A stretch of DNA of 61,924 bases, from assembly GCA_017428925.1 (NCBI GenBank), contig JAFRPY010000060.1, positions 1 to 61,924 of the forward strand, written 5' to 3'. The notes below the pieces were generated by a model. The model was not told where the DNA came from, made no database searches, and saw only the letters and a list, made by a program, of their open reading frames with translations. A program made the position numbers and the translations under genes. The stretch comes from Prevotella sp. (GTDB lineage Bacteria > Bacteroidota > Bacteroidia > Bacteroidales > Bacteroidaceae). This document shows, piece by piece, positions 8,079 to 47,602 of this stretch; within the stretch, counting starts at the first letter, position 1; each line of letters starts with the position of its first letter.

Positions 8079-8188
8079 AGACTTTAAATGACTTGCAATT
8101 AGACTTTAAATGCATCGCAATTAGACTTTAAATTGGATGCATTTAGACTTTAATTGCAACTCAATTAGACTTTGTTTGAAAAGTGTCC
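8079..8188. repeat. Tandem array A, five units, exact 22-base period
   Basis: The motif AGACTTT starts at 8079, 8101, 8123, 8145 and 8167, exactly 22 bases apart. The first three units share AGACTTTAAAT and the fourth and fifth drift (AGACTTTAATTG, AGACTTTGTTTG). The second halves vary (ACTTGCAATT, CATCGCAATT, GGATGCATTT, CAACTCAATT). There are no spacers between units. The array lies between a terminator (ending 8020) and the carB promoter. The rest of the 7947-8372 gap is AT-rich and holds nothing else I recognise. Confidence 0.9.
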
Positions 8189-8313
8189 ACACCTATAGTC
8201 CAATGATATTACCGTTTTCAAAAATAAAAAGGATATTCTTGCAGTTTTATTTTTTTAACGGCAGGAAAACGCAATTAAAGAAAGGATAATGTCCATTTTA
8301 CAATTAATTAGTG

Positions 8314-8321
8314 TATCTTTG
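8314..8321 (+). promoter_or_regulatory. -7 box of the carB-uvrA operon
   Basis: TATCTTTG matches the consensus. No good -33 box is seen at 19-21 bases. The start would be near 8325, leaving a leader of about 48 bases before carB. Confidence 0.65.
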
Positions 8322-8372
8322 CAGTCAAATTTGAGCAAGTAGCAAAAACTTAAGAACAAAGATAACAATAAA

Positions 8373-11300
8373 ATGAAAAAGAAACTCAACAAGGTGCTCG
8401 TACTGGGTTCTGGCGCATTGAAAATCGGACAGGCAGGAGAATTCGACTACTCTGGCTCTCAGGCCTTGAAAGCTCTCCGCGAAGAAGGTATTTCATCTGT
8501 TCTGGTGAACCCCAACATCGCCACCATCCAAACGTCGGAAGGCATCGCCGACAAGGTTTACTTCCAACCAGTGACTACTCATTTCGTAACCGAAATCATC
8601 AAGAAGGAACGCCCCGACGGAATTCTGCTGGCTTTTGGTGGCCAGACGGCACTGAACTGCGGTACTGAACTCTACCGCAACGGCACGCTCGAGGAATACG
8701 GCGTGGAGGTGCTCGGCACTAGTGTTGAGGCTATCATGAACACCGAGGACCGCGACCTGTTCGTGAAGAAACTCGACGAGGTGGAGCTGAAGACGCCCGT
8801 GAGCCACGCTGTGGAGAACATGGACGACGCGCTGAAGGCTGCCCGCGAGATTGGCTTCCCCATCATGATTCGCTCGGCATACGCCCTGGGCGGTCTGGGC
8901 TCGGGCATCTGTCCCGACGAGAAGGCTTTCATTGAGCTGGCCGAGAGTGCCTTTACGTTTGCCCCCCAGATTCTTGTGGAGGAGTCGCTGAAGGGATGGA
9001 AGGAGATTGAGTTTGAGTGCATCCGCGACGCCAACGACCACTGCTTCACGGTGGCTTCGATGGAGAATTTCGACCCGCTGGGCATCCATACGGGTGAATC
9101 AATCGTTGTGGCTCCGACTTGTTCGCTGACAGCCGAGCAGGTAAAGCAGCTTCAGGAAATCACCATCCGCTGCGTGCGCCATCTGGGCATCGTGGGCGAG
9201 TGCAACATTCAGTTTGCCTTCAACGCCACTACCAACGACTATCGCATCATTGAAATCAATGCCCGACTGAGCCGCTCATCGGCACTTGCCAGTAAGGCAA
9301 CGGGCTATCCGCTGGCCTTCGTGGCCGCCAAGATTGCGCTGGGCTACACGCTCGACCAAATCGGCGAGATGGGAACTCCGAATTCTGCATACGTGGCCCC
9401 GAGCCTCGACTATATGATTTGTAAGATACCGCGCTGGGACCTGACGAAGTTCTCGGGCGTCAGCCGACTGATTGGCTCGTCGATGAAATCGGTGGGTGAA
9501 ATCATGTCGATTGGCCGTTCGTTCGAGGAGATGATCCAGAAGGGCCTGCGCATGATTGGCCAGGGCATGCACGGATTCGTGGGCAACGACCACACGAAGT
9601 TCGACAACATCGAGGATGCCCTTCAGAATCCTACCGACCTGCGCATCTTTGCCATTGCCCAAGCACTGGAGGAGGGCTACACGGTGGAGCGCATCGAGGA
9701 GCTTACGAAAATCGACGTGTGGTTCCTGGAGCGACTGAAGCACATCGTTGACCTGAAGCACGAGCTGATGCAGTACAACAAGCTGGAGGACATCTCTGAC
9801 GAGAAGCTGCGCGAACTGAAGGGTGCCGGTTTCTCTGACTTCCAGATTGCCCGCTTCGTGCTGAAGCCCACTCAGGGTAACATGGAGAAGGAAAACCTCA
9901 CCGTTCGCAAGTACCGCAAGCAGCGTGGCATCGTGCCCTCGGTGAAGCGCATCAATACCGTGGCCAGCGAGCATCCCGAGCTGACCAACTACCTGTATTT
10001 CACCTATCTTTCGAAGGTGGAACCTACGATGGCCGATGCCAACGGTTCGGTGAGTTGCTGTGGCACAGCAACTTACAAAACAGCGGAGCATGACATTGAG
10101 TACTACAAGAATGAGAAATCGGTGGTGGTGCTCGGTTCGGGTGCCTACCGCATCGGTTCGTCGGTGGAGTTCGACTGGTGCTCGGTGAATGCCATCAACA
10201 CCGCCCGCAAGCTGGGCTACAAGTCGATAATGATTAACTACAACCCCGAAACGGTGTCGACCGACTATGATATGTGCGACCGCCTCTACTTCGACGAGCT
10301 TTCGCTAGAGCGCGTGCTCGACGTCATCGAACTGGAAGAGCCCCGCGGCGTCATCGTGAGCGTGGGCGGACAGATTCCGAACAACCTGGCCATGAAGCTC
10401 TATCATCAGGGCGTTCCCGTGCTGGGTACAAGTCCGGTGAACATCGACCGCGCTGAGAACCGCGACAAGTTCTCGGCCATGCTCGACAAACTGGGCATCG
10501 ACCAGCCCGCATGGCGTGCACTTACATCGGAGGACGACATCAAGGAGTTTGTGAACGAGGTGGGATTCCCCGTGCTGGTGCGTCCGTCGTACGTGCTCTC
10601 GGGAGCAGCCATGAACGTCTGCTATGACTTCGACGAGCTGCACCGCTTCCTCAACATGGCTACCGAAGTGTCGAAGGATTATCCGGTGGTGGTTTCGCAG
10701 TTCATGCAGGACACCAAGGAAATCGAGTTCGATGCCGTGGCCGACAAGGGCGAGGTGGTGGAATATGCCATCTCTGAGCATGTGGAATATGCCGGCGTAC
10801 ACTCTGGCGACGCAACTATGGTGTTCCCTGCCCAGCACATCTATTTCTCGACCATTCGCCAGATTAAGAAGATTTCGCGCAAGATTGCCCAGGAGCTGAA
10901 CATCAGCGGTCCGTTCAACATCCAGTTCCTTGCCAAGAACCGCGAGGTGAAGGTCATCGAGTGCAACCTGCGCGCCAGCCGTTCGTTCCCCTTCGTTTCG
11001 AAGATTCTGAAGCGCAACTTCATTGAGACGGCCACGAAGATTATGCTCGACGCTCCCTATCAGACACCCGACAGAAGCGAGTTCGACATCGACCGCATCG
11101 GCGTGAAGGCCAGCCAGTTCTCGTTCGCCAGACTGCAGAATGCCGACCCCGTGCTGGGTGTTGACATGAGCAGTACGGGTGAGGTGGGATGCCTTGGCGA
11201 CGACCTGAACGAGGCGCTGCTGAATGCACTTATTGCCACCGGCTACCGTCTGCCCAAGAAGAACATCCTGATTTCATCGGGTGCCGTGAAAGGCAAGGTT

Positions 11301-11663
11301 GACTTGCTTGAGCCGGCTCGCGAGCTGGTGAAGAACGGCTACCGCATCTTTGCAACGGCAGGAACGGCCAAGTTCTTCCAGGAGAACGGAGTGGAGGCTA
11401 CGGCTGTGGCATGGCCCGATGAAGGCGGCGAGAACAACGTGATGAACATGATTCAAGACCATCAGCTCGACCTGATCATCAACGTGCCCAAGAACCATAC
11501 CAACCGTGAGCTGACCAATGGCTACCGCATCCGCAGAGGTGCCATCGACCACAACATTCCGCTGATGACCAACGTACGTCTGGCCAAAGCTTTCATTGAG
11601 GCCTTCTGTGCGCTGAAGATGGAAGACATCAAGATAAAGGGATGGCAGGAATATAATGCATGA
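8373..11663 (+). CDS. carB: Carbamoyl-phosphate synthase large subunit
   Basis: The 1096-residue protein makes carbamoyl phosphate from bicarbonate, ammonia (delivered by CarA) and two ATP, for pyrimidine and arginine synthesis. It shows the internal duplication of CarB. The first half opens with VLVLGSGALKIGQAGEFDYSG and has ATP-grasp motifs (FGGQTALN, IMIRSAYALGGLGSG, IEINARLSRSSALASKATGYP). The second opens near residue 582 with VVVLGSGAYRIGSSVEFDW and has LVRPSYVLSGAAM and IECNLRASRSFPF. The last 140 residues (FATAGTAKFFQENGVEATAVAWPDEGG) form the MGS-like allosteric domain. carA is not in the window. It overlaps uvrA by four bases (ATGA), so the two are translationally coupled. Confidence 0.96.
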   Translation: MKKKLNKVLVLGSGALKIGQAGEFDYSGSQALKALREEGISSVLVNPNIATIQTSEGIADKVYFQPVTTHFVTEIIKKERPDGILLAFGGQTALNCGTELYRNGTLEEYGVEVLGTSVEAIMNTEDRDLFVKKLDEVELKTPVSHAVENMDDALKAAREIGFPIMIRSAYALGGLGSGICPDEKAFIELAESAFTFAPQILVEESLKGWKEIEFECIRDANDHCFTVASMENFDPLGIHTGESIVVAPTCSLTAEQVKQLQEITIRCVRHLGIVGECNIQFAFNATTNDYRIIEINARLSRSSALASKATGYPLAFVAAKIALGYTLDQIGEMGTPNSAYVAPSLDYMICKIPRWDLTKFSGVSRLIGSSMKSVGEIMSIGRSFEEMIQKGLRMIGQGMHGFVGNDHTKFDNIEDALQNPTDLRIFAIAQALEEGYTVERIEELTKIDVWFLERLKHIVDLKHELMQYNKLEDISDEKLRELKGAGFSDFQIARFVLKPTQGNMEKENLTVRKYRKQRGIVPSVKRINTVASEHPELTNYLYFTYLSKVEPTMADANGSVSCCGTATYKTAEHDIEYYKNEKSVVVLGSGAYRIGSSVEFDWCSVNAINTARKLGYKSIMINYNPETVSTDYDMCDRLYFDELSLERVLDVIELEEPRGVIVSVGGQIPNNLAMKLYHQGVPVLGTSPVNIDRAENRDKFSAMLDKLGIDQPAWRALTSEDDIKEFVNEVGFPVLVRPSYVLSGAAMNVCYDFDELHRFLNMATEVSKDYPVVVSQFMQDTKEIEFDAVADKGEVVEYAISEHVEYAGVHSGDATMVFPAQHIYFSTIRQIKKISRKIAQELNISGPFNIQFLAKNREVKVIECNLRASRSFPFVSKILKRNFIETATKIMLDAPYQTPDRSEFDIDRIGVKASQFSFARLQNADPVLGVDMSSTGEVGCLGDDLNEALLNALIATGYRLPKKNILISSGAVKGKVDLLEPARELVKNGYRIFATAGTAKFFQENGVEATAVAWPDEGGENNVMNMIQDHQLDLIINVPKNHTNRELTNGYRIRRGAIDHNIPLMTNVRLAKAFIEAFCALKMEDIKIKGWQEYNA

Positions 11664-14515
11664 CAGATAAGATAGAAGTACGCAATGCTCGGGTGAACAA
11701 CTTGAAGGGCATAACGCTCGACATCCCTCGCGACCGCTTCATCGTGGTAGCGGGGGTGTCTGGTTCAGGTAAGTCCTCGTTGGCCTTCGACACGCTATAT
11801 GCCGAGGGCCAGCGGCGCTATGTGGAGTCGCTGAGTTCTTACGCTCGGCAGTTCCTCGGCCGCATGAGCAAACCTGAATGCGACTACATTAAAGGACTGC
11901 CACCGGCCATTGCCATCGAGCAAAAGACGATTACCAGGAATCCGCGTTCCACCGTGGGCACCAGCACCGAAATCTACGAATACCTCAGGCTGCTGTTCGC
12001 CCGCATCGGAAAGACCTTCTCCCCCATCAGTGGGCAGGAGGTGAAGAAGCATACCACGGAAGACATCCTGAAATGCGCGCAGCAGTTTCAGGCGGGAACA
12101 AAGTTCGTGGTGATGGCTCCGCTACACATCCCCGAGAACCGCTCGCTCGGCAAGCAGCTTGAAATGGACATCAAGCAGGGATATGCCAGGCTTTTCTATA
12201 AGGGGGAATTCCACAGAATTGAAGATTTCATACAAGACGAGACGCTGCTGAACGAGGCCGAGAGGCAGCAATCATCCTCAAACGAATGCCTGTTGTGGCT
12301 GCTCATTGACCGTCTTTCGGTAGATGACAGCAAGGATACCATTTCGCGCCTGTTGGATTCGGCAGAGACCGCTTTCTATGAGGGCGACGGAGAGTGCCGA
12401 CTGATGTTCCTCCCCAGCAACATCAGCTACGACTTTTCCACACGCTTCGAGGCCGACGGCATCAAGTTTGAGGAGCCCAACGACAACATGTTCTCGTTTA
12501 ATTCTCCGCTTGGCGCCTGTCCCACGTGTGAAGGCTTTGGCCGCGTGATTGGTATCGATGAGAAATTGGTGATTCCCAACACAACGCTATCGGTATATGA
12601 AGGCTGCGTGCAATGCTGGCATGGCGACAAGATGAAGCAATGGCAAGACGAATTTTGCCGACGGGCAGCACGCGACCAGTTCCCCATCTTCAAGCCTTAC
12701 ATGGACCTTTCACGACAGGAAAGGGACTGGCTGTGGCATGGGCTGCCCTCTGACTCGAAAGACATCCACCAGCAAGTGAGCATCGACGCTTTCTTCCAGA
12801 TGGTCAAAGACAACCAATACAAGATTCAGTATCGCGTGATGATGAGCCGCTATCGCGGAAAGACCATTTGTCCGGACTGTCATGGGACTCGTCTGAAGAA
12901 GGAGACGGACTACATCAAGATAGGCGGAATGAGCATCACCAATCTCGTGGAGATGCCCATCGGGAACATGAAGCAATGGTTCGACAACCTGGTGCTTGAC
13001 GAGCATGACGCTGAGGTTGCGCGCCGACTGCTGGCAGAAATCAAAATGCGACTGCAATTCCTGGTTGACGTGGGGCTGAACTATCTGACGCTGAACCGTC
13101 CGTCGAACACATTGTCGGGTGGTGAAAGCCAGCGCATCAACCTCACTACATCGTTAGGCAGCTCGCTCGTGGGCAGCCTCTACATCCTCGACGAGCCCAG
13201 CATCGGACTACATTCGCGCGACACCTTCCGGCTTATCAACGTGCTCAAGGAACTGCAAAGCCTGGGCAATACGGTTATTGTGGTGGAGCACGACGAAGAA
13301 ATCATGCGGGCTGCCGACTATCTTATCGACATCGGCCCTGAGGCTGGAAGACTGGGCGGTGAGATTGTTTTCGAGGGAAACGTGGCCGACATCAAGAACG
13401 ACCCAGAGTCGGAAGAGGCCAAAAGTATCGTTGCGAAATATCCGCTGAGCCACTCCATCAAATACCTGACGGGAACGGAAGTGATTGCCGTGCCACAAAG
13501 CCGAAGGAAATGGAACCGCAGCTTCTGGCTGAAAGGGTGCCGGATGAACAACCTAAAAGGCATCGACGTGGAGTTCCCGCTGAATGTCTTCAATGTGGTT
13601 ACTGGCGTCTCGGGAAGCGGAAAGTCGTCGTTGGTGAAAGGCATTCTGTATCCGGCATTAAAGCGACATCTCGACGAGGTGGCCGAAATTCCGGGAGAAT
13701 ACAGGTCGCTGGAGGGTGACTGGCAGGAAATAAAGCAAGTGGAAATGGTTGACCAGAATCCCATCGGAAAGAGTTCGCGCTCGAACCCCGCCACCTACGT
13801 GAAAGCCTATGATGCCATCCGTCAGCTGTTTGCCGAGCAGCCGCTGTCGAAACAAATGGGATTCACGCCGCAGTATTTCTCGTTCAACGCCGACGGCGGA
13901 CGATGCGAGGAATGCCAGGGAGCTGGTGTCATCAATGTGGAGATGCAGTTTATGGCCGATCTTACGCTGGTCTGCGAGGCCTGTCACGGCAAGCGTTTTA
14001 AGCGTGAAATCCTTGAAGTGCGCTTCCACGATAAAAACATCAACGACATTCTTGACATGACCATCGCTGAAGCCATTGATTTCTTTAAAGAGCATAATGA
14101 GCAGCAGATTGTCAGCAAGCTGAAACCGCTCGATGATGTAGGGCTGGGATACATCAAGCTGGGACAGAGCAGCAGCACTTTGTCGGGAGGTGAGAACCAG
14201 CGCGTAAAGCTGGCCTACTTTATCGGAAAAGAGCAGCAGGCCCCTACCCTATTCATTTTCGACGAACCTACCACCGGCTTGCATTTCCACGATATCCAAC
14301 GGCTGCTCGACGCATTCAATGCGCTCATTGAGCGTGGACACACCATCATCGTCATCGAGCATAACCTTGACATTGTAAAATGCGCCGACCATGTTATCGA
14401 CCTAGGCCCTGAAGGCGGAGACCGCGGCGGTTCGCTGGTATGCACAGGAACACCCGAAGAGGTGGCAAAATGCAAAGAAAGCCTTACTGGCCATTATCTT
14501 GCCCCTAAACTATAA
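11660..14515 (+). CDS. uvrA: Excinuclease ABC subunit A (UvrA)
   Basis: The 951-residue ATPase recognises bulky DNA damage and loads UvrB in nucleotide excision repair. Two ABC modules are visible: Walker A GVSGSGKSSLAFD (about residue 32) with signature LSGGESQR (about 486), and Walker A GVSGSGKSSLVKG (about 650) with signature LSGGENQR (about 840), then Walker B FIFDEPTTGLH. Zinc-binding pairs are present as CPTCEGFG (about 288) with CPDCHGTRL (about 403), and CEECQGAG (about 749) with CEACHGKRF (about 772). Length is normal. Bacteroidales genomes often hold more than one UvrA, so this could be the second paralogue. It overlaps carB by four bases, an unusual pairing. Confidence 0.95.
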   Translation: MTDKIEVRNARVNNLKGITLDIPRDRFIVVAGVSGSGKSSLAFDTLYAEGQRRYVESLSSYARQFLGRMSKPECDYIKGLPPAIAIEQKTITRNPRSTVGTSTEIYEYLRLLFARIGKTFSPISGQEVKKHTTEDILKCAQQFQAGTKFVVMAPLHIPENRSLGKQLEMDIKQGYARLFYKGEFHRIEDFIQDETLLNEAERQQSSSNECLLWLLIDRLSVDDSKDTISRLLDSAETAFYEGDGECRLMFLPSNISYDFSTRFEADGIKFEEPNDNMFSFNSPLGACPTCEGFGRVIGIDEKLVIPNTTLSVYEGCVQCWHGDKMKQWQDEFCRRAARDQFPIFKPYMDLSRQERDWLWHGLPSDSKDIHQQVSIDAFFQMVKDNQYKIQYRVMMSRYRGKTICPDCHGTRLKKETDYIKIGGMSITNLVEMPIGNMKQWFDNLVLDEHDAEVARRLLAEIKMRLQFLVDVGLNYLTLNRPSNTLSGGESQRINLTTSLGSSLVGSLYILDEPSIGLHSRDTFRLINVLKELQSLGNTVIVVEHDEEIMRAADYLIDIGPEAGRLGGEIVFEGNVADIKNDPESEEAKSIVAKYPLSHSIKYLTGTEVIAVPQSRRKWNRSFWLKGCRMNNLKGIDVEFPLNVFNVVTGVSGSGKSSLVKGILYPALKRHLDEVAEIPGEYRSLEGDWQEIKQVEMVDQNPIGKSSRSNPATYVKAYDAIRQLFAEQPLSKQMGFTPQYFSFNADGGRCEECQGAGVINVEMQFMADLTLVCEACHGKRFKREILEVRFHDKNINDILDMTIAEAIDFFKEHNEQQIVSKLKPLDDVGLGYIKLGQSSSTLSGGENQRVKLAYFIGKEQQAPTLFIFDEPTTGLHFHDIQRLLDAFNALIERGHTIIVIEHNLDIVKCADHVIDLGPEGGDRGGSLVCTGTPEEVAKCKESLTGHYLAPKL

Positions 14516-14553
14516 TTACTCCATATTTTCAGTCATTCAAAAAAGAAAGAATA

Positions 14554-14814
14554 ATGAAACACTACGAATATCAGACCTCAGGCGTTTGCAGCAAGGCCAT
14601 CGTATTCGACCTCGATGAGCAGCAGCAAGTACACAATATACAGTTCATCGGAGGATGCCCGGGCAACACCACTGGAGTAAGCCTTCTTTCTGAAGGCCAC
14701 GATGCCCAAAAGCTGATCAGCATGCTGAAAGACGTGAAATGCGGCTACAAGAATACCAGCTGCCCTGCTCAGTTTGCGTTGGCGCTATCACAAGCAATGA
14801 AAGAGGAAATCTGA
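14554..14814 (+). CDS. TSCPD domain protein (TIGR03905-like)
   Basis: The 86-residue protein carries IGGCPGNTTGVSLL and the signature TSCPAQFALALSQA, the TSCPD motif that names the domain. The same domain closes vitamin B12-dependent ribonucleotide reductases, and stand-alone versions of this length are common in anaerobes. Cysteines at GVCSK, GGCPG, KCGY and SCPA could bind a metal. Function is not established. It follows uvrA by 38 bases on the same strand and precedes a bidirectional terminator, so it is probably the last gene of the carB operon. Confidence 0.85.
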   Translation: MKHYEYQTSGVCSKAIVFDLDEQQQVHNIQFIGGCPGNTTGVSLLSEGHDAQKLISMLKDVKCGYKNTSCPAQFALALSQAMKEEI

Positions 14815-14824
14815 AAGCATAAAC

Positions 14825-14866
14825 AAAAAGGGTTGTCTTCCGAACGAATGGAAAACAACCCTTTTT
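14825..14866. terminator. Bidirectional intrinsic terminator
   Basis: AAAAAGGGTTGT (14825-14836) pairs with ACAACCCTTTTT (14855-14866), and an inner TTCC/GGAA extends the stem. The A/T tracts serve both the TSCPD gene (plus) and atpG (minus). Confidence 0.9.
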
Positions 14867-14884
14867 ATTACTGATAATGTAAGG

Positions 14885-22132: not shown

Positions 22133-22164
22133 CAAAATTAGAAAAAAAATCCGATAAGTCCAAA
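22133..22164 (-). promoter_or_regulatory. Promoter of the ATP synthase operon
   Basis: On the minus strand TTTG (22164-22161), a 20-base spacer and TAATTTTG (22140-22133) fit the consensus exactly. The start would be near 22129, about 35 bases before atpD. Confidence 0.85.
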
Positions 22165-22269
22165 CTTTCAATTAAAAAAAAACAAAAAAGTAGAATGTGT
22201 AATATAATTCGTACATAATAACCATACGAATATGTTTTTATGATCAGATAAAGTTCTGCTGGACAACAA

Positions 22270-22357
22270 ATAAAGTCACAATGGGTTGGTTTTAAAGTTC
22301 AAAACTACCAGTATTAAAGTTCAGAACTGCCAGTTTTAAAGTTTAAAACTACCAGTT
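22270..22357. repeat. Tandem array B, three clear units plus one worn unit, 22-base period
   Basis: TTAAAGTT or TTAAAGTTT starts at 22292, 22314 and 22336, exactly 22 bases apart. A worn copy (TAAAGT) lies in phase at 22270. Each clear unit ends in ACTACCAGT or ACTGCCAGT. The array lies between the serA terminator and the atp promoter. The unit sequence differs from array A, although its reverse complement also contains ACTTTAA. Nothing else is recognised in the 22093-22484 gap. Confidence 0.9.
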
Positions 22358-22430
22358 CCGCTCAGTAAAACTCTTGCTTCCACTGGGTGGAAGGAGTGCA
22401 AGTAACCAGCGTTTGAATGGAATCTGATGG

Positions 22431-22470
22431 ATAAAAAAACTGAGTCCACCGATTTAAAGTGGACTCAGTT
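22431..22470 (-). terminator. Intrinsic terminator of serA
   Basis: AACTGAGTCCAC (22438-22449) pairs perfectly with GTGGACTCAGTT (22459-22470). On the minus strand the stem is followed by a run of Ts (complement of 22431-22439). Confidence 0.92.
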
Positions 22471-22484
22471 ATCTTCAGTTTTGA

Positions 22485-23402
22485 TTATTTGTTCACCTGG
22501 AACTTTGTGCAGCCATCCTTGAAGAAGGCGTTGATCTGCTTGGCGGCAGCAATACCGGCATTGATATTGGCCTCAGCGGTCTGTGCACCCATCTTCTTGG
22601 GAGTTGAGAAGTAGCGGCCTTCGAACTTCTGGAACTCAGCATCGGCATCGGGCTTGATGTCGGTGATGTACTTAATGTCCTCACGCTCTGCCATCAGTTT
22701 GAGCAGTTCAGGCTCATTGATCACTTCCTTGCGGGCTGTGTTGACCACGATACCACCCTTCTTCATCTTGTTCACCAAGGCATAGTTGATGCTCTCCTTG
22801 GTCTCGGGAGTTGCAGGAATATGGAGTGAAACCACGTCGCACTGTTCGAAGAGTGCATCCTGGTTGGCAACGGCATGCACACCGGCAGCCTCGATAACCT
22901 CTACAGGACAGTAGGCATCGTATGCATAGACATCCATTCCAAAGCCCTTGGCCACACGAGCCACATTGCGGCCCACATTACCAAATGCGAGGATACCCAG
23001 TTTCTTGCCCATCAGTTCAGAGCCGGCCTTGCCGTTGAAGAAGTTGCGCACACCAAATACGAGCAGGCCGAACACCAGTTCAGCCACGGCGTTTGAGTTC
23101 TGTCCGGGAGTGTTCTCAGCCACCACATTGTGGGCAGTAGCAGCAGCCAGGTCGATATTGTCATAGCCTGCACCTGCACGAACCACAATCTTCAACTGCT
23201 TGGCAGCATCGAGCACCTCGGCATCCACCTTGTCGGAACGGATGATAAGGGCATCGGCATCCTTCACGGCATCCAGAAGTTGGGCCTTCTCGGTATATTT
23301 CTCCAGCAGCACGAGTTCGTTGCCTGCTGCTTCAATCTCCTTGCGAATGCCCTCAACAGCGGCACTTGCAAATGGTTTCTCTGTAGCTACTAAAATCTTC
23401 AT
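22485..23402 (-). CDS. serA: D-3-phosphoglycerate dehydrogenase, short form without ACT domain
   Basis: The 305-residue D-2-hydroxyacid dehydrogenase should oxidise 3-phosphoglycerate to 3-phosphohydroxypyruvate, the first step of serine synthesis. Visible motifs are VVRAGAGYDNIDLAAA, ENTPGQNSNAVAEL, the NAD-binding LGILAFGNVGRNVARVAKGFGM and VVNTARKEVINE. The catalytic Arg, Glu and C-terminal His are in the expected order. It lacks the C-terminal ACT regulatory domain of E. coli SerA, so serine feedback through that domain is not expected. It follows serC on the same strand, which supports the serine assignment over other hydroxyacid substrates. Confidence 0.9.
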   Translation of the reverse strand: MKILVATEKPFASAAVEGIRKEIEAAGNELVLLEKYTEKAQLLDAVKDADALIIRSDKVDAEVLDAAKQLKIVVRAGAGYDNIDLAAATAHNVVAENTPGQNSNAVAELVFGLLVFGVRNFFNGKAGSELMGKKLGILAFGNVGRNVARVAKGFGMDVYAYDAYCPVEVIEAAGVHAVANQDALFEQCDVVSLHIPATPETKESINYALVNKMKKGGIVVNTARKEVINEPELLKLMAEREDIKYITDIKPDADAEFQKFEGRYFSTPKKMGAQTAEANINAGIAAAKQINAFFKDGCTKFQVNK

Positions 23403-23418: not shown

Positions 23419-23493
23419 GAACACAAAGACACAAAGGCACAAAGGATATTTTTATTGTCGTTTAAATCTTTGTTTCTTCGTGTCTTTGTGTTC
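23419..23493. repeat. Inverted-repeat element, copy 1
   Basis: GAACACAAAGACAC (23419-23432) and its exact reverse complement GTGTCTTTGTGTTC (23480-23493) flank about 47 bases. The arms extend to ACAAAG and CTTCGT with one mismatch. The same arms flank a second element at 57761-57831. It fills nearly the whole serC-serA gap. Confidence 0.85.
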
Positions 23494-29475: not shown

Positions 29476-29593
29476 CACCTTTCGGTTGAAATCTTCTACA
29501 AGGCGACGGGCGACACGAACATATCAGAGTGTCTTGTCCGCCGCCTTTAAGTATGCAGTAAAACAAGGCAAACAAACATTCATTCCATTATTC

Positions 29594-29703
29594 ATCGCAT
29601 TACTGCTCATTATCGGCAGTAAAACTGCTCATTATTGGCAGAAAAACTGCTCCCTATTGGCAGTAAAACTGCAACTTATCAGCAGTAAAACAAGAAAAAT
29701 ACA
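29594..29703. repeat. Tandem array C, five units, 22-base period
   Basis: GCAGTAAAAC or GCAGAAAAAC starts at 29616, 29638, 29660 and 29682, exactly 22 bases apart, and a worn unit lies in phase at 29594. Units carry CTGCTCATTATTG, CTGCTCCCTATTG and CTGCAACTTATCA after the core. The start of each clear unit can form a small hairpin (GCAGT-AAA-ACTGC). Another GCAGTAAAAC at 29555 is out of phase by five bases. The array lies between the pectate lyase and tRNA-Lys; the rest of the 29476-29843 gap holds only the tRNA promoter. Confidence 0.9.
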
Positions 29704-29791
29704 CTCTAACTTCATCACGGCGACGCATAACGACCATTACATTGCCCGAAACATTGCACTGAAAAGTTTTTTGAAAAAAAAAGCGTATTTA

Positions 29792-29823
29792 TTTGGTGTT
29801 TTCGAAAAAACACCGTACCTTTG
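29792..29823 (+). promoter_or_regulatory. Promoter of tRNA-Lys with a palindromic spacer
   Basis: TTTG (29792-29795), a 20-base spacer and TACCTTTG (29816-29823) fit the consensus. The spacer itself is an inverted repeat: GGTGTTTT (29795-29802) and AAAACACC (29807-29814). The start would be near 29827, leaving about 17 bases of 5' leader to be trimmed. Confidence 0.8.
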
Positions 29824-29843
29824 CAACCGCATTCAAGAAAACT

Positions 29844-29919
29844 GCACCCGTAGCTCAGTTGGTAGAGCACCTGACTCTTAATCAGGGTGTCCAGGGTTCG
29901 AACCCCTGCGGGTGTACCA
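29844..29919 (+). tRNA. tRNA-Lys (anticodon CTT)
   Basis: The 76-base gene folds as a standard cloverleaf. The acceptor stem is GCACCCG with CGGGTGT (first pair G-U). The D arm contains GCTCAGTTGGTAGAGC. The anticodon stem CCTGA/TCAGG closes the loop CTCTTAA with anticodon CTT at 29877-29879. The T arm is CAGGG-TTCGAAC-CCCTG. The 3' CCA is encoded (29917-29919). Confidence 0.97.
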
Positions 29920-41027: not shown

Positions 41028-41040
41028 AAACAAGAAGGAT

Positions 41041-41766: not shown

Positions 41767-41790
41767 CAGAACAATTATTCAGCATTATCC

Positions 41791-42372
41791 GTGAAGACGA
41801 TAAGACTTTGCCTATTCTTAGTCGTGATGCAGCTTTTGGTGGTGCTTGTGTCATGGCTTGTTCCGGCAGCAATGCCAGACATAGCCATGCACTCACTACT
41901 CTCGTCGGAAGGTTTAAGATGGTTTTTCGGCCGTTTCACAAGCAATCTTGCCCATCCCTTTCTGGTATGGTTCATCCTTATCTATGTGGCATGTGTGGCC
42001 TATCGTCAGAGCGGATTGCAACATACATTGAAGAGCATCATCCACGGTGAACGCCTCCTACTACGCCAGCGCACAGCACTTTGGCTGGTATTAGCCGAAC
42101 TTGTGATTATTCTATGCGTGATTATCGGATTAGCCTTTGTTCCCCATGCCATGTTGCTCAGTATCACTGGAGACTTGTTTCCTTCCAGTTTTGCTGCTTC
42201 GCTGGTTCCTCTTGCCGCCTTCACACTATTCATTGTCAGCGTCAGCTATGCAGCTGCCAATGGTCAGCTGCGCCATTTGTCACATCCCGTAAACAACCAT
42301 GTTGCCCATTGGCTGCTTGTCTACATTTTAGCCATGCAGTTGTGGCAGAGCATCCTCTTTGTATTTTCTTAA
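41791..42372 (+). CDS. Membrane protein, possibly a half-size AbgT-type transporter
   Basis: The 193-residue protein (GTG start at 41791; no earlier ATG) has about five hydrophobic helices and few charged residues. The pattern LVPAAMPDIAMHSLLSSEGLRWFFGRFTSN...FLVWFILIYVACVAYRQSGLQ resembles the first part of AbgT (aminobenzoyl-glutamate) family transporters. Full AbgT proteins have about 500 residues, so this would be a short relative rather than a full carrier. Recognition is from memory and only moderate. It follows the response regulator by 24 bases. Confidence 0.55.
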   Translation: MKTIRLCLFLVVMQLLVVLVSWLVPAAMPDIAMHSLLSSEGLRWFFGRFTSNLAHPFLVWFILIYVACVAYRQSGLQHTLKSIIHGERLLLRQRTALWLVLAELVIILCVIIGLAFVPHAMLLSITGDLFPSSFAASLVPLAAFTLFIVSVSYAAANGQLRHLSHPVNNHVAHWLLVYILAMQLWQSILFVFS

Positions 42373-42394
42373 TCCTTCTTGTTGCTCTGCCCGT

Positions 42395-43150
42395 TCACTG
42401 GGCTTTCATCCAATACTGCCGCTCATCGGCCGACATCTTCTCAATGGCATAGCGAAGTGTCGTCCTTGGCATTTCGTGAACATGCTGGCTGAGGAACTCA
42501 CGGAGTAAATCCATACTGACGTTCTTACCCATTTCACGAAGCATCCATCCCGTGGCTTTGTGCATCAAATCGTGGGGATGGCGGAGATGGATTTCAGCAT
42601 AGCGAAGACACCACGAAGGGTCGCCTTCGCGAGAAGTCATCCATGTGAAGACCATGCTTATGCGCTGTTTCCAGAGGTTGTCACTATAGGCAAGCTCGTC
42701 GATGATTTGTTGACGGGAGCCTTTGATGCCTGTAGGCAGCATCACCCATCGGCCGAGAATCTTGGGAGCCGACAAATCTACCAAATCCCAATTGTTAGCT
42801 TGAGCGGAATATTGCAGATACATCGTCAGAATCTTGTCGCGGATGAGCATCGCCTGAGGGTCATCGACAAACTTTTTCTTGGAAAGCGCCTCGAACTTCT
42901 CTACAAGAATCAGCAGCCCGCATAGTCTGACTTCATGCCAACGGCTCATCAACAGTTCTGGAACTTCGTCGAGTGGAAGTTCCTTCGACTCCTTTGCGAT
43001 GGCTCGTGTCTGCGGAACTTTCAGTCCAAGGAATTCGTCGCCCTCGCCGTATTCTCCCTCTCCAGTCTTGAAAAATCGTATCAATACCTGGCGTTGTTCT
43101 TCGTTTTGAAGAGATTCCATCAACGCTATAACTTCTTTCGCTTTAGTCAT
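42395..43150 (-). CDS. DNA alkylation repair protein, AlkD-like
   Basis: The 251-residue all-helical protein matches the AlkD family of HEAT-repeat DNA glycosylases: FLGLKVPQTRAIAKESKELPLDEVPELLMSRWHEVRLCGLLIL, WDLVDLSAPKILG, RISMVFTWM and HDLMHKATGWMLREMGK. AlkD removes N3- and N7-alkylpurines without base flipping. The aspartate in NWDLVDLSA corresponds to the conserved active-site region. It follows yraN by six bases on the same strand, so the two DNA-linked genes share an operon. Confidence 0.9.
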   Translation of the reverse strand: MTKAKEVIALMESLQNEEQRQVLIRFFKTGEGEYGEGDEFLGLKVPQTRAIAKESKELPLDEVPELLMSRWHEVRLCGLLILVEKFEALSKKKFVDDPQAMLIRDKILTMYLQYSAQANNWDLVDLSAPKILGRWVMLPTGIKGSRQQIIDELAYSDNLWKQRISMVFTWMTSREGDPSWCLRYAEIHLRHPHDLMHKATGWMLREMGKNVSMDLLREFLSQHVHEMPRTTLRYAIEKMSADERQYWMKAQ

Positions 43151-43156
43151 TGTGAA

Positions 43157-43519
43157 TCAGATAATTGGAACGTCAATAATATGTTCTATTTCGGGCGTTC
43201 CAGTTTCGGGTGAGCCGACGATGGAAATGATGTCGAAACGGATGTCGTTGTCAATATGGTGATATTTGATGTAGTGGTTTATGGCACGTTTCAGGTTCTG
43301 CATCTTCTTGTAGTTTATGGCGTCGGTGGGTTCCGTGAACTGTCGGTTTCGTCTGGTTTTCACTTCCACAAAAACCACAACATCGGCGTCTTTAGCGATG
43401 AGGTCGATGTCGCGATGACCTGATTTCCAGTCTTGTTCAAGAATCAGATACCCCTTGCTACGCAGGAAAACGGCAGCCACGGCCTCTCCCCACTTTCCCA
43501 ACTCATTATGTGCTGCCAT
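43157..43519 (-). CDS. yraN: YraN-family (UPF0102) nuclease-like protein
   Basis: Starting at ATG 43519 (MAAHNELGKWGEAVAAVFL), the product is 120 residues. Longer in-frame starts add an unrelated extension. It has the UPF0102 marks ELGKWGE, LEQDWKSGHRDIDLIAKDADVVVFVEVKTRRN and the closing FDIISIVG, a restriction-endonuclease-like core (D, then ExK). Family members are linked to Holliday junction or recombination processing, but function remains unproven. It shares a divergent gap with ispE. Confidence 0.9.
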   Translation of the reverse strand: MAAHNELGKWGEAVAAVFLRSKGYLILEQDWKSGHRDIDLIAKDADVVVFVEVKTRRNRQFTEPTDAINYKKMQNLKRAINHYIKYHHIDNDIRFDIISIVGSPETGTPEIEHIIDVPII

Positions 43520-43614
43520 ACTTGACTTATTATATCCTGTTCTACACCATTTTCTGTCCCGTATCATTCCTCCAGCACATAGCCGTAGGAGGATGATAAT
43601 CAACAATCGTTTTG

Positions 43615-43622
43615 CAAAGATA
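43615..43622 (-). promoter_or_regulatory. -7 box of yraN-alkD
   Basis: TATCTTTG on the minus strand (43622-43615). The start would be near 43611, leaving a leader of about 90 bases. The nearest -33-like sequence is weak. Confidence 0.6.
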
Positions 43623-43685
43623 ACACTTTCCCGTAAGATACGAAAAAAAACAAGACAATATTACAATTATTCCAGCAGTTTGCGT

Positions 43686-43693
43686 TATCTTTG
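43686..43693 (+). promoter_or_regulatory. -7 box of ispE
   Basis: TATCTTTG. The start would be near 43697, giving a short leader of about 14 bases that contains AAAGGAAAT, a possible ribosome site. Confidence 0.65.
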
Positions 43694-43710
43694 CAGAAAA
43701 AAAGGAAATA

Positions 43711-44511
43711 ATGAAGACAAAGGTATGCGCTAAGGTGAATCTGGGACTCAACGTCGTGAACAAACGGGCCGACGGTTATCACGACCTTGAAACGGTGTTC
43801 TATCCCGTTGCGCTTTTCGACAGCATCGAGATAAGGGTAGCTGAGCAATTTGCCTTCCACGTAGAAGGAGAGCCGATAACGGGAGACCCCGAGAAGAACC
43901 TTGTGGTAAAGGCTTATCGGATGATAGCCGATAAGTATCCTCTTCCACAGGTTGACATCACACTCTGCAAGCTGATTCCCATGCAGGCAGGCATGGGCGG
44001 AGGCTCTGCTGACGGTGCTTTCACCATCCGGCTTCTCAACGAACAATTCCAGCTGGGCATGAGCGTCGAGGAAATGCAGGAGTATGCAGTAAAGTTAGGC
44101 GCCGATTGCCCTTTCTTCATCGAAGCCGTTCCTGCCTATGCCGAGGGCATCGGCGAGAAACTCTACTCTCTCCCACTCGACCTTAGCCGTTACACAATGG
44201 CCGTGGTGAAGCCTCCCATAGCCGTCAGCACTCGCGAGGCCTTCAATGGCATCAGCGTTAGACGCCCGGCTAAATGCTGTCGAGACATCGTGATGCAACC
44301 TGTAGAGACCTGGAGGAAAGAACTCGTGAACGATTTCGAGGACAGTATCTTCCCGCTTTATCCCCGACTGCGCGATATCAAGCAGCAACTCTATGACCTG
44401 GGGGCAACCTATGCTGCCATGAGCGGAAGCGGCTCGGCACTCTTCGCACTCTTCAAGAACCGTCCACAAATCGATAACCAATTCACCGACTGCAAGACAT
44501 GGATAATCTGA
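43711..44511 (+). CDS. ispE: 4-diphosphocytidyl-2-C-methyl-D-erythritol kinase
   Basis: The 266-residue GHMP kinase phosphorylates CDP-methylerythritol in the MEP isoprenoid pathway. It shows the substrate lysine in AKVNLGLNVVNKRADGYHDLETVF, the phosphate loop PMQAGMGGGSADGAFTI and the third motif AAMSGSGSALFALF. The catalytic Asp lies in LGADCPFF. Length is close to the family norm. Its 3' end overlaps the Nudix gene by 13 bases. Confidence 0.95.
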   Translation: MKTKVCAKVNLGLNVVNKRADGYHDLETVFYPVALFDSIEIRVAEQFAFHVEGEPITGDPEKNLVVKAYRMIADKYPLPQVDITLCKLIPMQAGMGGGSADGAFTIRLLNEQFQLGMSVEEMQEYAVKLGADCPFFIEAVPAYAEGIGEKLYSLPLDLSRYTMAVVKPPIAVSTREAFNGISVRRPAKCCRDIVMQPVETWRKELVNDFEDSIFPLYPRLRDIKQQLYDLGATYAAMSGSGSALFALFKNRPQIDNQFTDCKTWII

Positions 44512-45002
44512 AAGAACTCTTCCCTATGGTCGACGAACAGGGCAACATCATGGGTTGCATCACCCGGGGTGAGGCCCATTCGGGTAGCATGGTACTCCAC
44601 CCCGTCGTCCACCTGCACGTTTTCAACAGTAAGGGCGACCTCTACTTGCAGAAGCGCCCCGAGTGGAAAGACATCCAGCCGGGCAAATGGGACACGGCCG
44701 TAGGCGGGCACATCGACTTCGGCGAGAACGTGGCGACAGCACTACAGCGCGAGGCCCGCGAGGAACTCGGCATCACCTCCTTCACCCCCGAATCCATGGG
44801 CCACTATGTGTTTCAGAGCAAGCGCGAACGCGAACTTGTCTATGTGAACAAAATTATCTACGACGGTGATATCCGTCCAAGCGCCAACGAACTCGACGGT
44901 GGACGATTCTGGACGCGCCAGGAGATTGCCGACAATATAGGAAAACAGGTATTCACCCCCAACTTTGAAGACGAATACCTGCGATTTTTTGGTCGTAAAT
45001 AG
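44499..45002 (+). CDS. Nudix hydrolase
   Basis: The 167-residue protein has a full Nudix box, GHIDFGENVATALQREAREELGI (written here for its pattern G-x5-E-x7-REAREELGI), and the preceding WDTAVGG. The N-terminal LFPMVDEQGNIMGCITRGEAH and HLHVFNSKGDLYLQKRP resemble the YfcD and isopentenyl-diphosphate isomerase-like branch. The IPP-isomerase cysteine and SHP signature are not seen. The diphosphate substrate is unknown. It overlaps ispE by 13 bases, so they are co-translated. Confidence 0.9.
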   Translation: MDNLKELFPMVDEQGNIMGCITRGEAHSGSMVLHPVVHLHVFNSKGDLYLQKRPEWKDIQPGKWDTAVGGHIDFGENVATALQREAREELGITSFTPESMGHYVFQSKRERELVYVNKIIYDGDIRPSANELDGGRFWTRQEIADNIGKQVFTPNFEDEYLRFFGRK

Positions 45003-45018
45003 TCTTTCTCCTGAAACG

Positions 45019-47277
45019 CTATCTCACCACTATTTTCTTTCCGTCCTTGATGTAGATGCCCTTGGCGGGACGGCTGACGGCCAGGCCGTTAAGGTTCCAT
45101 ACTGCCGAAGGCGAATTGCTTTCGGCATCAATCTCGCCGATGCCTGTGGCAGGGCCGTTGACCACAGTGAACGTGATGGGCGTGCACAAGTTGTTGTGGG
45201 CATTGTCGATGACACTCACCGTGTAAGTCTTGCCCACTTGCAGTCCCATGATGCTCATGATTCCCGAGGCCGATTTTCCTACGGGGATGGTAAACGTCCA
45301 GCCCTTGAAGTCGGTGATGCCCACGAGCACCGACTGCGAAATCACCTCCGACGTCATGTTCGTCACATCCACCGTCACCTTGGCCGTTGTCGTTCCCAGG
45401 TAGTTGGTTCCGTCCTCCTCATACATTCCCTCGATGGTTGCCGTCACCAGCACCTTGGGCTTGCCCTCCGAGATGTATATGGTCTTCGTTCCTAGCAGTT
45501 TCCCTGCAGCATCCTTGAAGATAAGTTTGAAGTTGCCTGACTCCACCGGAGTGAAATAGAAATTGCCCGTTCCCGTAGATTGCGCCTTTGCCGAGACACC
45601 CGAGGCGCCCGTCAGCGTTGATTCATCGTCAACGAACATCTGCACCGTACCATAGAACTCGTCGCTGCCGTCGTTGTAGAACGTGGCCACAATCTCCTGC
45701 GTCGAGAACGAAGTGGCGTTGCCATTGATTGTGACGTCTTGGAGGGACAGCTCACATTGTGGATGGCATACCACCTTCGTGACCTTGCCTCCGCTTACCG
45801 TCACCTCTGCATAATATAGTCCGCTGCCGTCGTTCACCGTCCAGTCACCACTGCCGTCCAGTCGCGAGATGGCCACCACTCTGAAAGTGCCGTTGCCGAA
45901 GGTCTGCGCCATCGACGCATACGGAACCGAAGTGATGAATCCGAAGCCCGTCAGATAGCTGTCCACATGCTTGAAGTTCTGCGGCTGCAGCTGTCCGCTG
46001 TTGTCATAGTATCCCCATCCATAGTCCACCGAAAGCGTCTGCCCGCTGTCGTTCGAAATCAGGAATCGCAGCGACTTGTCCTCCTCATCTGTATAAACGT
46101 TCTTTGTGGTCAGCGCGAAGTCTGCCTCCAATCCAGCGGTCTTCTTCTGAATGCCCACCACCATCAGCTGGTCCATGCTGTAGCCGTCCTCTTTATTGTG
46201 GCCTGGCGATGTCTGGTCGTTGAACGCATCCATCAGCGAGAGCAGGAAGAAACCATCGTGTTTCCCTTTCCATCCCCAGTTCACGTGGTAGTGGCCACTG
46301 TTGTCGCAACCGTCACAGATGAAGGCATGCACCCCATTGGTGGCCGACTGTCCCGAATAGACCACGGGGCGGCCTTCTAGTAGTTCGTTGTAGATGATGT
46401 CGTCCCACTGGCCGCTCGTATAAGCCGAGCGCAAGATGAGGTGCAGGGCCGGAGAATAGTCGAAATAATCAATCATCGCGCTACACAGGTTGCTCACGAT
46501 GGAACTCGACGAAGACGTTCCGAAATTGGTGCAAACAGACCATGAGCAGTATTTGAACAGCTGCGCCACAGCGTTCATCTGCCTGTCGCTCTCGGTGCCC
46601 TCATACGTGTCGAGCATGTTGTCCCAGTCGAAGTTCACGGGCGATAGTGCCGGTAGCGTCCCTAAAAGGTCGTTTGTCTTGTACGATGGAATCGTCATCG
46701 ACGGACGAGAAGGCCAGCGATGATACTTCATCAGCTGCGCCATAGCCACGCCAACACACCCAGCATAGCAGTAGTTTTCCTTATAGACGGGGCATTGCAA
46801 GTTGAAGGGCTGAGTGCCGTTTCGCGTACCTTGACTCCACTTCGTGGTCAGCATTGGGCTTATGGGCGTATGGGTTATCACCGATGCGGGGGCGGCCCTT
46901 CGTGCGGCGATGTTCCCCATCTGTGCGGCATAGCTGTCGAGCAGCGCCTGCAAGGCCTCGGGCACGTCATCGGCAGAGAGGCTTCCCTCGTCAGAATAGC
47001 CCAGTATAGGCTCCACAGCATCGTCGGCAGCGGCAATCACGTAACCCTCGCTGCCCACGTTCATCACGTAGAAAGCACCTTCGCGGCTCAGTTCCTCAAC
47101 GGTAGTGACCTTGAGGGGCGCCTTGGGTGCTTTCATTCTGAAACTCGATTTTCCGTCATTCGATGCGGCAATGAACGACAACACTCGTTGACGGGCCGTT
47201 TGCTCACTAATGGGATTAGCCTTAGCATTCACAACGAATGCCAAAAGTATCAGCGGTAGTATTCTTTTCATGCTCAT
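45019..47277 (-). CDS. Secreted C10-family cysteine protease (streptopain-like)
   Basis: The 752-residue protein starts with a signal peptide (MSMKRILPLILLAFVVNAKA) and a propeptide (about 20-120, YVIAAADDAVEPILGYSDEG). The catalytic domain (about 135-380) has the active Cys in CYAGCVGVAMAQLMKYHRWP (about 173) and the His in GVHAFICDGCD (about 316). HYHVNWGWKG follows. Homologues include SpeB and interpain A. Residues about 390-700 form beta-rich modules of unknown role, and the end carries the tail WNLNGLAV...KGIYIKDGKKIVVR. It has its own promoter at 47295-47327. Confidence 0.92.
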   Translation of the reverse strand: MSMKRILPLILLAFVVNAKANPISEQTARQRVLSFIAASNDGKSSFRMKAPKAPLKVTTVEELSREGAFYVMNVGSEGYVIAAADDAVEPILGYSDEGSLSADDVPEALQALLDSYAAQMGNIAARRAAPASVITHTPISPMLTTKWSQGTRNGTQPFNLQCPVYKENYCYAGCVGVAMAQLMKYHRWPSRPSMTIPSYKTNDLLGTLPALSPVNFDWDNMLDTYEGTESDRQMNAVAQLFKYCSWSVCTNFGTSSSSSIVSNLCSAMIDYFDYSPALHLILRSAYTSGQWDDIIYNELLEGRPVVYSGQSATNGVHAFICDGCDNSGHYHVNWGWKGKHDGFFLLSLMDAFNDQTSPGHNKEDGYSMDQLMVVGIQKKTAGLEADFALTTKNVYTDEEDKSLRFLISNDSGQTLSVDYGWGYYDNSGQLQPQNFKHVDSYLTGFGFITSVPYASMAQTFGNGTFRVVAISRLDGSGDWTVNDGSGLYYAEVTVSGGKVTKVVCHPQCELSLQDVTINGNATSFSTQEIVATFYNDGSDEFYGTVQMFVDDESTLTGASGVSAKAQSTGTGNFYFTPVESGNFKLIFKDAAGKLLGTKTIYISEGKPKVLVTATIEGMYEEDGTNYLGTTTAKVTVDVTNMTSEVISQSVLVGITDFKGWTFTIPVGKSASGIMSIMGLQVGKTYTVSVIDNAHNNLCTPITFTVVNGPATGIGEIDAESNSPSAVWNLNGLAVSRPAKGIYIKDGKKIVVR

Positions 47278-47294
47278 TTAGGTAGCTTAGACTG

Positions 47295-47327
47295 CAAAGT
47301 TACTGTTTTTTTCACAAAACTGCCAAA
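47295..47327 (-). promoter_or_regulatory. Promoter of the C10 protease
   Basis: TTTG (47327-47324), a 21-base spacer and TAACTTTG (47302-47295) on the minus strand. The start would be near 47291, giving a short leader of about 13 bases. Confidence 0.75.
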
Positions 47328-47438
47328 ACTTTCGTCACTTTTTTTCAATTCCCCGTATTTTCGTGGAAAATAGTCTTCGACGACATAAAAAAGTAACTTG
47401 TAAACAACAATGGAAAGGATACTGCCCTTCTGAAAAAA

Positions 47439-47602
47439 CATTGTATTCCTTCCGCTTAGCAGAAGCATCCTTTCCACAGTTCAGAAGCATCCTTTCCACA
47501 GTTTAGAAGCATCCTTTCCACAGTTTAGAAGCTTCGTTTCCACAGTTTGGAAATCCTCTTTCCGAAGTTCGGAAGTATTCCTTCCTTGTAGGGAGGAAAG
47601 TA
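47439..47602. repeat. Tandem array D, about seven units, 22-base period
   Basis: AGAAGCATCC starts at 47461, 47483 and 47505. AGAAGCTTCG follows at 47527, then GGAAATCCTC at 47549 and GGAAGTATTC at 47571. All steps are exactly 22 bases. Worn units lie in phase on both sides (47439 and about 47593). Units 1-4 share TTTCCACAGTT after the start. The array lies between the C10 protease promoter and the 3' end of nqrF. The rest of the 47278-47702 gap holds a hairpin at 47643-47674. Confidence 0.92.

Follow-up and report, generated by a model that had tools for sequence, protein, structure and literature searches.

Intergenic tandem arrays with a period of exactly 22 bases recur across Prevotella, and four of them lie in the 61,924-nucleotide contig JAFRPY010000060.1 of Prevotella sp. 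(GenBank assembly GCA_017428925.1). We refer to this whole stretch as the window; it is contig C53 of a 3.56-Mb draft genome, called the own genome below. On balance, we favor the view that such arrays are copies of short, non-coding repeats dispersed through the intergenic DNA of Prevotella, each consisting of a few 22-bp modules, often four, whose register is kept by pairing and exchange while their sequence turns over. Our results establish a genus-wide peak at this period, dyad symmetry in slightly more than half of the arrays, block-wise dispersal, and intergenic position. For one high-copy family, found in genomes G084 and G017, they also establish complementarity between modules and altered module cores at orthologous sites.

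A 22-base period in the window and across the genus

Tandem Repeats Finder (TRF) places period 22 in the window at 8079-8173, 22289-22357, 29602-29691, and 47461-47552. An ungapped scan over lags 8-79 reaches a score of at least 20 only at these four arrays, at lag 22 or its multiple 44. The two methods, of which TRF allows indels, confirm the initial annotation's report of four intergenic arrays with an exact common period and differing sequences, and the wider limits given there cover worn units that are in phase. The arrays, none with an assigned strand, are as follows.

8079..8181, unstranded: array 1 (family F1), about five units of 22, unit CAATTAGACTTTAATTGCAACG, upstream of carB
22243..22396, unstranded: array 2 (family F2), unit CAGTTTTAAAGTTCAAAACTAC, TRF core 22289-22357 with in-phase worn units flanking both sides
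29603..29691, unstranded: array 3 (family F3), four CTGC-N9-GCAG hairpins with 5-nt A/T linkers, before tRNA-Lys
47447..47593, unstranded: array 4 (family F4), unit CAGTTTAGAAGCATCCTTTCCA, TRF core 47461-47552, about six units with worn ends

The four had been described as unrelated and not copies of one element. Unit sequences do differ between the loci, and no shared sequence that would mark a common ancestral unit remains among the four. However, the arrays are not unique to their loci. For every one of them the own-genome stretches contain one or more relatives at other places, so that each belongs to a dispersed family; relatives of arrays 1, 2, and 4 lie at L040:15251-15376, L054:8688-8778, and L052:7345-7445 (L numbers denote sequence stretches). 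The earlier wording also needs mending in that a palindromic design is common to many unit sequences.

The period is not a peculiarity of the window. In a 470-kb sample of the own genome, which includes the window and was not picked for arrays (L026, with runs of N, was left out), 19 of 37 arrays scoring at least 20 in the lag scan fell at lag 22, including the four of the window, and one at lag 44. Local shuffling of the sample in 200-base blocks yielded zero arrays at a score of at least 16, at any period. TRF assigned period 22 to 21 of 68 own-genome arrays with the window included, to 17 of 59 without it, and to 14 of 54 when stretches fetched for Y1 transposase genes were removed as well (L045 is in the lag sample and L043-L045 are in the TRF set, L044 lying inside L045). 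Furthermore, a pattern of two CAGTTT motifs 22 apart plus CAG had 22 matches in the own genome, from several families, against 0 for the reversed control. The stretches fetched through these matches (L046-L055) enter the dyad, gap, axis-phase, fold, inverted-repeat, terminator, and synteny counts but not the period histograms. Several fetched stretches end early at contig ends.

Similar peaks were found in two other Prevotella sets. At nqrF loci from 80 records, most labelled Prevotella or Prevotellaceae (1.50 Mb), the lag scan peaked at 22 (28 of 129 arrays), with 8 arrays at lag 21, 2 at 23, and 8 at 44; 24 of the 80 loci had an array at lag 22 or 44 and 56 had none. TRF gave period 22 for 51 of 231 arrays at 79 of these loci, with at least one in 31. 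L121, equal to L118, was kept in this lag histogram and as a subject in the gap comparison below, but left out of the dyad, dyad-run, axis-phase, gap-orientation, fold, inverted-repeat, TRF, and terminator counts. Among ten other genomes of the genus (400 kb, 40 kb each), 10 of 30 lag-scan arrays were at lag 22 and 2 at lag 44; three genomes lacked lags 22, 44, and 66, and one had lag 66 only. With TRF, period 22 accounted for 24 of 52 arrays and appeared at least once in all ten. Density in the three Prevotella sets was about 3.5 to 6 period-22 arrays per 100 kb. Outside the genus, the lag scan detected no lag-22 array in an order-level set (350 kb from 20 genomes, 19 of other families and one of the same family) or in a class and phylum set (380 kb, 19 genomes), and TRF assigned period 22 to 1 of 27 and 1 of 29 arrays, respectively. 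The period histogram proposed earlier as a check is therefore not flat but peaks at 22 in the genus. Unit sequences are species-specific, and TRF reported 0% indels for 17 of 21 period-22 arrays in the own genome, 41 of 51 at the nqrF loci, and 17 of 24 in the ten genomes.

Other periods were also seen at the nqrF loci. A second, weaker TRF peak at 21 (26 arrays; L129, L132, L137, and others) consists partly of AATTAGGAATTAGGGATGAGG-type or ATTAGG-like simple repeats. A 301-bp array at L086:6205-6505, intergenic and upstream of nqrF, has 23-bp units (CACGAATTATGGAAAATATAAAT-like, the second half inverted). It forms the strongest inverted repeat among the control arrays, and the corresponding gap is only a few tens of bases in most relatives.

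Unit design and dispersed families

Many units are mirror images of themselves. Circular dyad symmetry, judged against column-permuted units, reached p ≤ 0.05 in 39 of 69 lag-22/44 arrays versus 3 of 30 arrays of other periods (18 to 30); some families contribute several arrays to these totals. A palindrome that is periodic in this way has an axis every 11 bp. RNA folding of the better strand gave z < -2 for 56 of 81 lag-22/44 arrays and for 39 of 151 arrays of other periods, and a long inverted repeat (score of at least 14) was present in 32 of 81, compared with 7 of 97 among control arrays and 0 of 81 after shuffling. Owing to zero-variance shuffles, fold and dyad z values are given as counts rather than means; exact tests were run on the inverted-repeat and gap-orientation counts. 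In the window, array 1 as a whole is an inverted repeat (8078-8174, 75% over 48-bp arms) and folds on the + strand with -40.6 kcal/mol (z -8.4), while array 2 contains an inverted repeat at 22289-22349. The mirror-image design is common, but it is not universal.

The cleanest family is F3, to which array 3 belongs. Its CTGC-N9-GCAG hairpins, separated by five mostly A/T linker bases, occur at nine own-genome loci, numbering exactly four at eight of them and five at one, and modules resemble each other by position between several loci. A whole-genome search with the F3 unit, allowing at most two mismatches, returned 29 matches, all within the nine arrays and none solitary; across 199 other genomes of the genus there was 1 stray match. 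F3 copies end at or near the array, and some show inverted first and last modules. Family F6 (three arrays seen) likewise has four modules, with inverted ends TTGTAATTTC and GAAATTACAA. In F3, as in the AGTTTT-N7-AAAACT arrays of L018 and L053, arms are conserved and cores vary.

The register was also followed between neighboring sequences. Six pairs of different arrays lie side by side with an axis score of 0.5 or more in each member; in 4 of the 6, the axes fall within half a base of a multiple of 11, in a small, post hoc comparison. In-phase runs of dyads with unrelated sequence were not enriched at distance 22 (24 versus a mean of 17.7 per distance), and we attribute peaks at dyad distances of 33 and 55 to the periodicity of the palindromes themselves.

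Two long runs were observed. In Xylanibacter caecicola, 440 bp of 22-bp modules lie directly downstream of nqrF (L074:11435-11874), with a sequence that shifts along the array. About 430 bp at L135:19778-20205 are rich in 22-bp modules of at least three families in succession, and exactly 14 x 22 bases separate the axis of the first array from that of the last.

A high-copy element with four modules

The flanks of an array from G084 led to a family of much higher copy number. About 200 bp around that array recur throughout G084 and its relative G017, and alignment defines one intergenic element of about 190 bp, from TTTTGTAAAGATAATTC to GAAAAATATTTACA, with four 22-base modules as its core. 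A module-4 pattern had 232 and 234 matches in the two genomes (a few copies may match twice) and 0 for the reversed control. A search of 60 genomes, with a single copy plus flanking sequence as query, showed the array stretch repeated many times in G084 and G017 only; short matches of about 40-80 bases also occurred in G006, G012, G024, and G027. The element lies in no preferred orientation: it reads with the left gene in 22 cases and against it in 20, and with the right gene in 17 and against it in 25 (8 of 50 copies, at locus edges, excluded).

Of 58 copies collected from G084 and G017, we dropped 8 that were out of register and analysed 50. The ends, TGTAAA and TTTACA, pair in 48-50 of the 50 copies at each position. 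Module 1 has a core that is reverse-complementary to that of module 2 or 3 (5 or 6 of 6 bases) in 47 of the 50 copies. When module 1 was permuted among copies, the count was 40.8 ± 1.6 (maximum 47), and the observed mean match was reached in 1 of 10000 permutations. Covariation over the whole structure was 0.115, versus 0.075 ± 0.004 for shuffled copies (0 of 500) and 0.011-0.034 for structures slid out of place; changes on both sides, within the whole structure, are confined to the stem between modules 1 and 3.

Three orthologous sites, with flanks 86-94% identical between G084 and G017, reveal how copies differ. Cores differ between the genomes, and the length is 22 each time. At the first site modules 1 and 2 differ together, along with the end of module 3; at the second the contents of modules 2 and 3 are swapped; the third differs in module 2 and at the end of module 3. 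In either genome, module 1 at every one of these sites has a match in module 2 or 3.

Genomic position and turnover between species

Arrays are concentrated between genes. By a simple open reading frame (ORF) rule, 69 of 77 lag-22/44 arrays with a score of at least 18 are intergenic, and the other 8 are in short ORFs. The window member of those 8 was the one judged: the sole listed ORF across array 3 (29486-29881, TTG start) extends into tRNA-Lys, and for that reason we take it to be spurious. Convergent, codirectional, and divergent gaps with arrays number 23, 34, and 7, against a background of 115, 273, and 139, so that convergent gaps are enriched and divergent ones depleted. A terminator-like hairpin stands between the gene end and the array in 39 of 80 cases versus 32 of 111 random segments. 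On the other side, TAnnTTTG, which we take to be the Bacteroidota -7 (or -7-like) promoter element, is found between array and gene start in 30 of 48 cases versus 7 of 48 shuffled sequences.

The arrays also turn over between species. For five arrays whose flanks could be matched elsewhere, the relative's gap was shorter in 36 of 36 comparisons, by 17 to 567 nt (own-genome and duplicate rows excluded), and none of the 36 gaps held a period-22 array at a score of at least 16. Array 4, for instance, is absent from the syntenic gap of G145, where 60 nt separate the flank matches rather than 309; the sequence was also read by eye.

Origin of the register

How could length be fixed while sequence is free? 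In the explanation that we favor, many modules are dyads with conserved arms and a variable core and spacer, their symmetry axes recur every 11 bp, and a whole array can fold into a single rod-like hairpin. We infer that such a hairpin, formed by a single strand during replication, repair, or transcription, may hold the modules at equal length. Conversion, either templated by the hairpin or as gene conversion, would then copy one module into another in register, preserving the 22-base length and the pairing and letting the sequence turn over; this would explain why length is fixed and sequence free. What supports the proposed exchange directly is the set of in-place module differences at orthologous sites, where length and pairing are kept. 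In the initial annotation, the same combination had been taken to imply either selection on spacing or a generator with a fixed footprint. A fixed-register generator fits the in-place differences in G084 and G017, but fixed length alone does not imply that spacing is selected. The accompanying idea that units share one face of the DNA is compatible with dyad axes every 11 bp, and the complementarity between modules favors the hairpin.

Several observations weigh against this explanation. Three of the 50 G084/G017 copies break the module 1 pairing rule, covariation in the module 1-2 stem, considered by itself, does not rise above shuffles, and one of five measures, further pair types, does not exceed them (18 versus 17.2; 171 of 500). 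Most of the covariation traces to a single block, three to five columns wide, that is swapped as a unit, so that few independent events stand behind it, and kinship of copies alone, without structure, can exceed shuffles. The pattern expected from conversion would equally arise from selection for pairing. In addition, the exchange mechanism is read from one family in one pair of genomes, a family other than the window arrays. Neither a dyad nor a fold was found in L025, L036, L118:789, L134, and two arrays of L139, and pairing at the level of the element is weak or absent in some families (F3; the arrays at L025, L036, and L134). Among the nine F3 loci, the loops of the first and last hairpins are complementary at 8 of 9 bases in four and at no more than 3 bases in three. 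We saw no transposition event or mobilizer, and in F3, the family inspected, no target duplications were evident by eye.

An argument can be made that the arrays are instead double-stranded binding sites, where a dimeric protein, or paralogues with different half-sites, would occupy phased half-sites every 11 bp and the two-turn spacing would be selected. Conserved arms around variable cores, 22-bp steps that are nearly free of indels, and the frequent position between terminator and promoter motifs are what such sites would look like. Yet the persistent complementarity of separate module cores is not predicted, the absence of period-22 arrays from all 36 relatives' gaps is unlike a conserved operator, and 22 bp slightly exceeds two turns of B-DNA. 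We consider this account unlikely, although it is the best of the alternatives.

More doubtful still is an RNA-level role, in which a transcribed rod hairpin would act on mRNA ends as a terminator or stabilizer, like the repetitive extragenic palindromic (REP) sequences and bacterial interspersed mosaic elements (BIMEs) of E. coli. Strong folding, covariation, the excess of convergent over divergent gaps, and the fact that 22 bp make two turns of an 11-bp A-form helix would all suit it. However, because terminator-like hairpins on the gene-end side and TAnnTTTG on the start side often bracket the arrays, many of them are probably outside the mRNA. Rfam families are set aside as well, since in the window, L283, and L028 they matched only two tRNAs and nothing at the arrays. 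The lack of orientation bias in the G084/G017 element also counts against an RNA, as a weak point, given that a hairpin is strand-symmetric. Taken together, these results make an RNA element quite improbable.

Finally, neutral minisatellites grown locus by locus through replication slippage, with 22 favored by local hairpins, would account for arrays that differ between species, worn end units, and the 30 of 69 arrays without a significant dyad, but they predict neither one sharp period in one genus with almost none elsewhere, nor the constant number and positional similarity of F3 modules, nor a dispersed element with about 230 matches per genome, and we regard such an origin as very improbable.

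Features around the window arrays

Eight window genes near the arrays were searched against NCBIfam, which named carB, atpD, a phosphoglycerate dehydrogenase-like gene, a polysaccharide tyrosine kinase, and nqrF and left three without a match; no transposase is among the named genes. Array 2 lies between the phosphoglycerate dehydrogenase-like gene and atpD, which follows it, and array 4 between nqrF and a gene of 752 amino acids. The features listed here were located by eye; the terminator-like hairpin between array 3 and its upstream gene, also by eye, is imperfect.

7981..8021, + strand: terminator-like hairpin with T run, between the upstream gene and array 1
8314..8321, + strand: TAnnTTTG motif TATCTTTG, between array 1 and carB
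22133..22140, - strand: TAnnTTTG motif TAATTTTG, between array 2 and atpD
22438..22471, - strand: terminator-like hairpin of gene 22485-23402 (- strand), between that gene and array 2
29816..29823, + strand: TAnnTTTG motif TACCTTTG, between array 3 and tRNA-Lys
47295..47302, - strand: TAnnTTTG motif TAACTTTG, between array 4 and the 752-aa gene
47643..47675, - strand: terminator-like hairpin of nqrF, between nqrF and array 4

Two further window gaps, 23422-23491 and 57763-57829, share one design with each other, with three 8-base repeats (CACAAAGG and ACACAAAG) whose inverted counterparts lie about 20 bases on.

Comparison with known systems

Several familiar systems resemble the arrays in part. 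REP, BIME, and REPIN elements share short intergenic palindromes, dispersal as blocks, and, in some F3 copies, inverted first and last modules, while a fixed tandem pitch is not known as a feature of REP elements. We reject membership in the system formed by REP and its associated tyrosine transposase (RAYT) on two grounds. The two own-genome Y1 genes in L043 and L044 have other repeats at their flanks and lie in stretches that lack a period-22 array, and a Y1 match, present in 5 of 11 genomes tested, was found in neither G084 nor G017. Period-22 arrays do occur about 2 kb from one own-genome Y1 gene, in L045. The two RAYT-like Y1 genes, at C68:30684 (L043) and C22:31745 (L044), have border repeats of their own, of the AATGAATCAAAGAACCGTCCCC and CCTGTCCCCATGACCC types (by eye).

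Clustered regularly interspaced short palindromic repeats (CRISPR) are set aside as the units are contiguous, without spacers; no cas search was made. CRISPR-like arrays with a 66-base pitch were seen separately at L131:12598-14013 and L199:1011-2166. Plasmid iterons and the end repeats of Tn7 and Mu offer 22-bp direct repeats with two-turn phasing, but the units described here are palindromic and their families dispersed. Rep_3 genes (PF01051; other Rep families were not searched) lie outside the window contig, at C38:72992 and C108:20371, and are possible plasmid or second-replicon genes. The domain occurs in 4 of 60 genomes, the own genome with its two genes included, and has no link to the arrays. 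A transposon bracketed by two identical arrays was considered at L033 and L051, but the genes there, read by eye, look like duplicated host genes or operons and not mobile cargo. Viral carriers are likewise discounted: the F3 pattern occurs in 2 viral contigs without a lag array, and the match is a gene-like stretch identical in both.

Two named repeat families come closer. PINSR is an intergenic, non-coding 188-bp repeat of P. intermedia and P. nigrescens, limited to P. intermedia relatives, with 177 and 184 copies in two strains, and it is named as one place where the genomes of two P. intermedia strains differ by inversion or translocation (PMC4755523). The G084/G017 element is probably PINSR, judged by description (size, number, intergenic position, and the two large contigs of G084) rather than by comparing sequences. 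The two agree in size (about 190 bp), in number (by the match counts given above), in intergenic position, and in presumed host. They differ in that the G084/G017 element has short inverted ends, TGTAAA and TTTACA, whereas the paper states no terminal inverted repeat; its main text does not contain the term "22-bp" (PMC4755523). The window families, for their part, have other sequences.

BrickBuilt is a spacer-less 23-nt minisatellite array with long stem loops, situated in a miniature inverted-repeat transposable element of Porphyromonas gingivalis; it is one sequence family, with 19 dispersed copies, in P. gingivalis and P. gulae, and the paper also mentions 22-, 23-, and 41-nt repeats in strain W83 (PMC4596501). 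Like the Prevotella arrays, it is intergenic and dispersed, with nearly equal tandem units that lack spacers, a long stem-loop formed by the units, a more conserved half-unit, and terminators nearby. Unlike them, its unit is 23 nt and not the 22 of all four window arrays, and it has IS5-like terminal inverted repeats with a leader and tail, while F3 of the own genome shares no leader or tail between copies. The initial annotation's statement that no named family has this property was half right: PINSR (PMC4755523) and BrickBuilt (PMC4596501) are close, but neither account, in the text drawn on here, describes a genus-wide 22-base class. Among the open-licence papers listed for 22-bp or intergenic tandem repeats of Prevotella or Bacteroidetes, none treats this class apart from that on BrickBuilt, and PINSR itself appeared in PMC4755523 only.

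These comparisons lead to a broader proposal, which we put forward tentatively and with less confidence than the account of the arrays themselves. Prevotella may harbor a class of repeats whose heritable trait is a 22-bp length register with mirror symmetry and not a sequence. Conversion templated by hairpins would rewrite its modules in place, and the class would include PINSR, and perhaps BrickBuilt, as local cases. If so, every species, and even orthologous copies, would carry different letters within the same frame. Since repeat families are usually recognised by sequence, a class that keeps only length and symmetry would escape sequence search. By the densities and match counts given above, such arrays are abundant. 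The concerted exchange at orthologous sites would offer a testable case of mutation by hairpin templating, and the arrays could serve as a marker for rearrangement of Prevotella genomes. Dispersed intergenic hairpin repeats are themselves of a known kind, and what is described here generalizes PINSR and BrickBuilt; the new part is the fixed register that runs through the genus.

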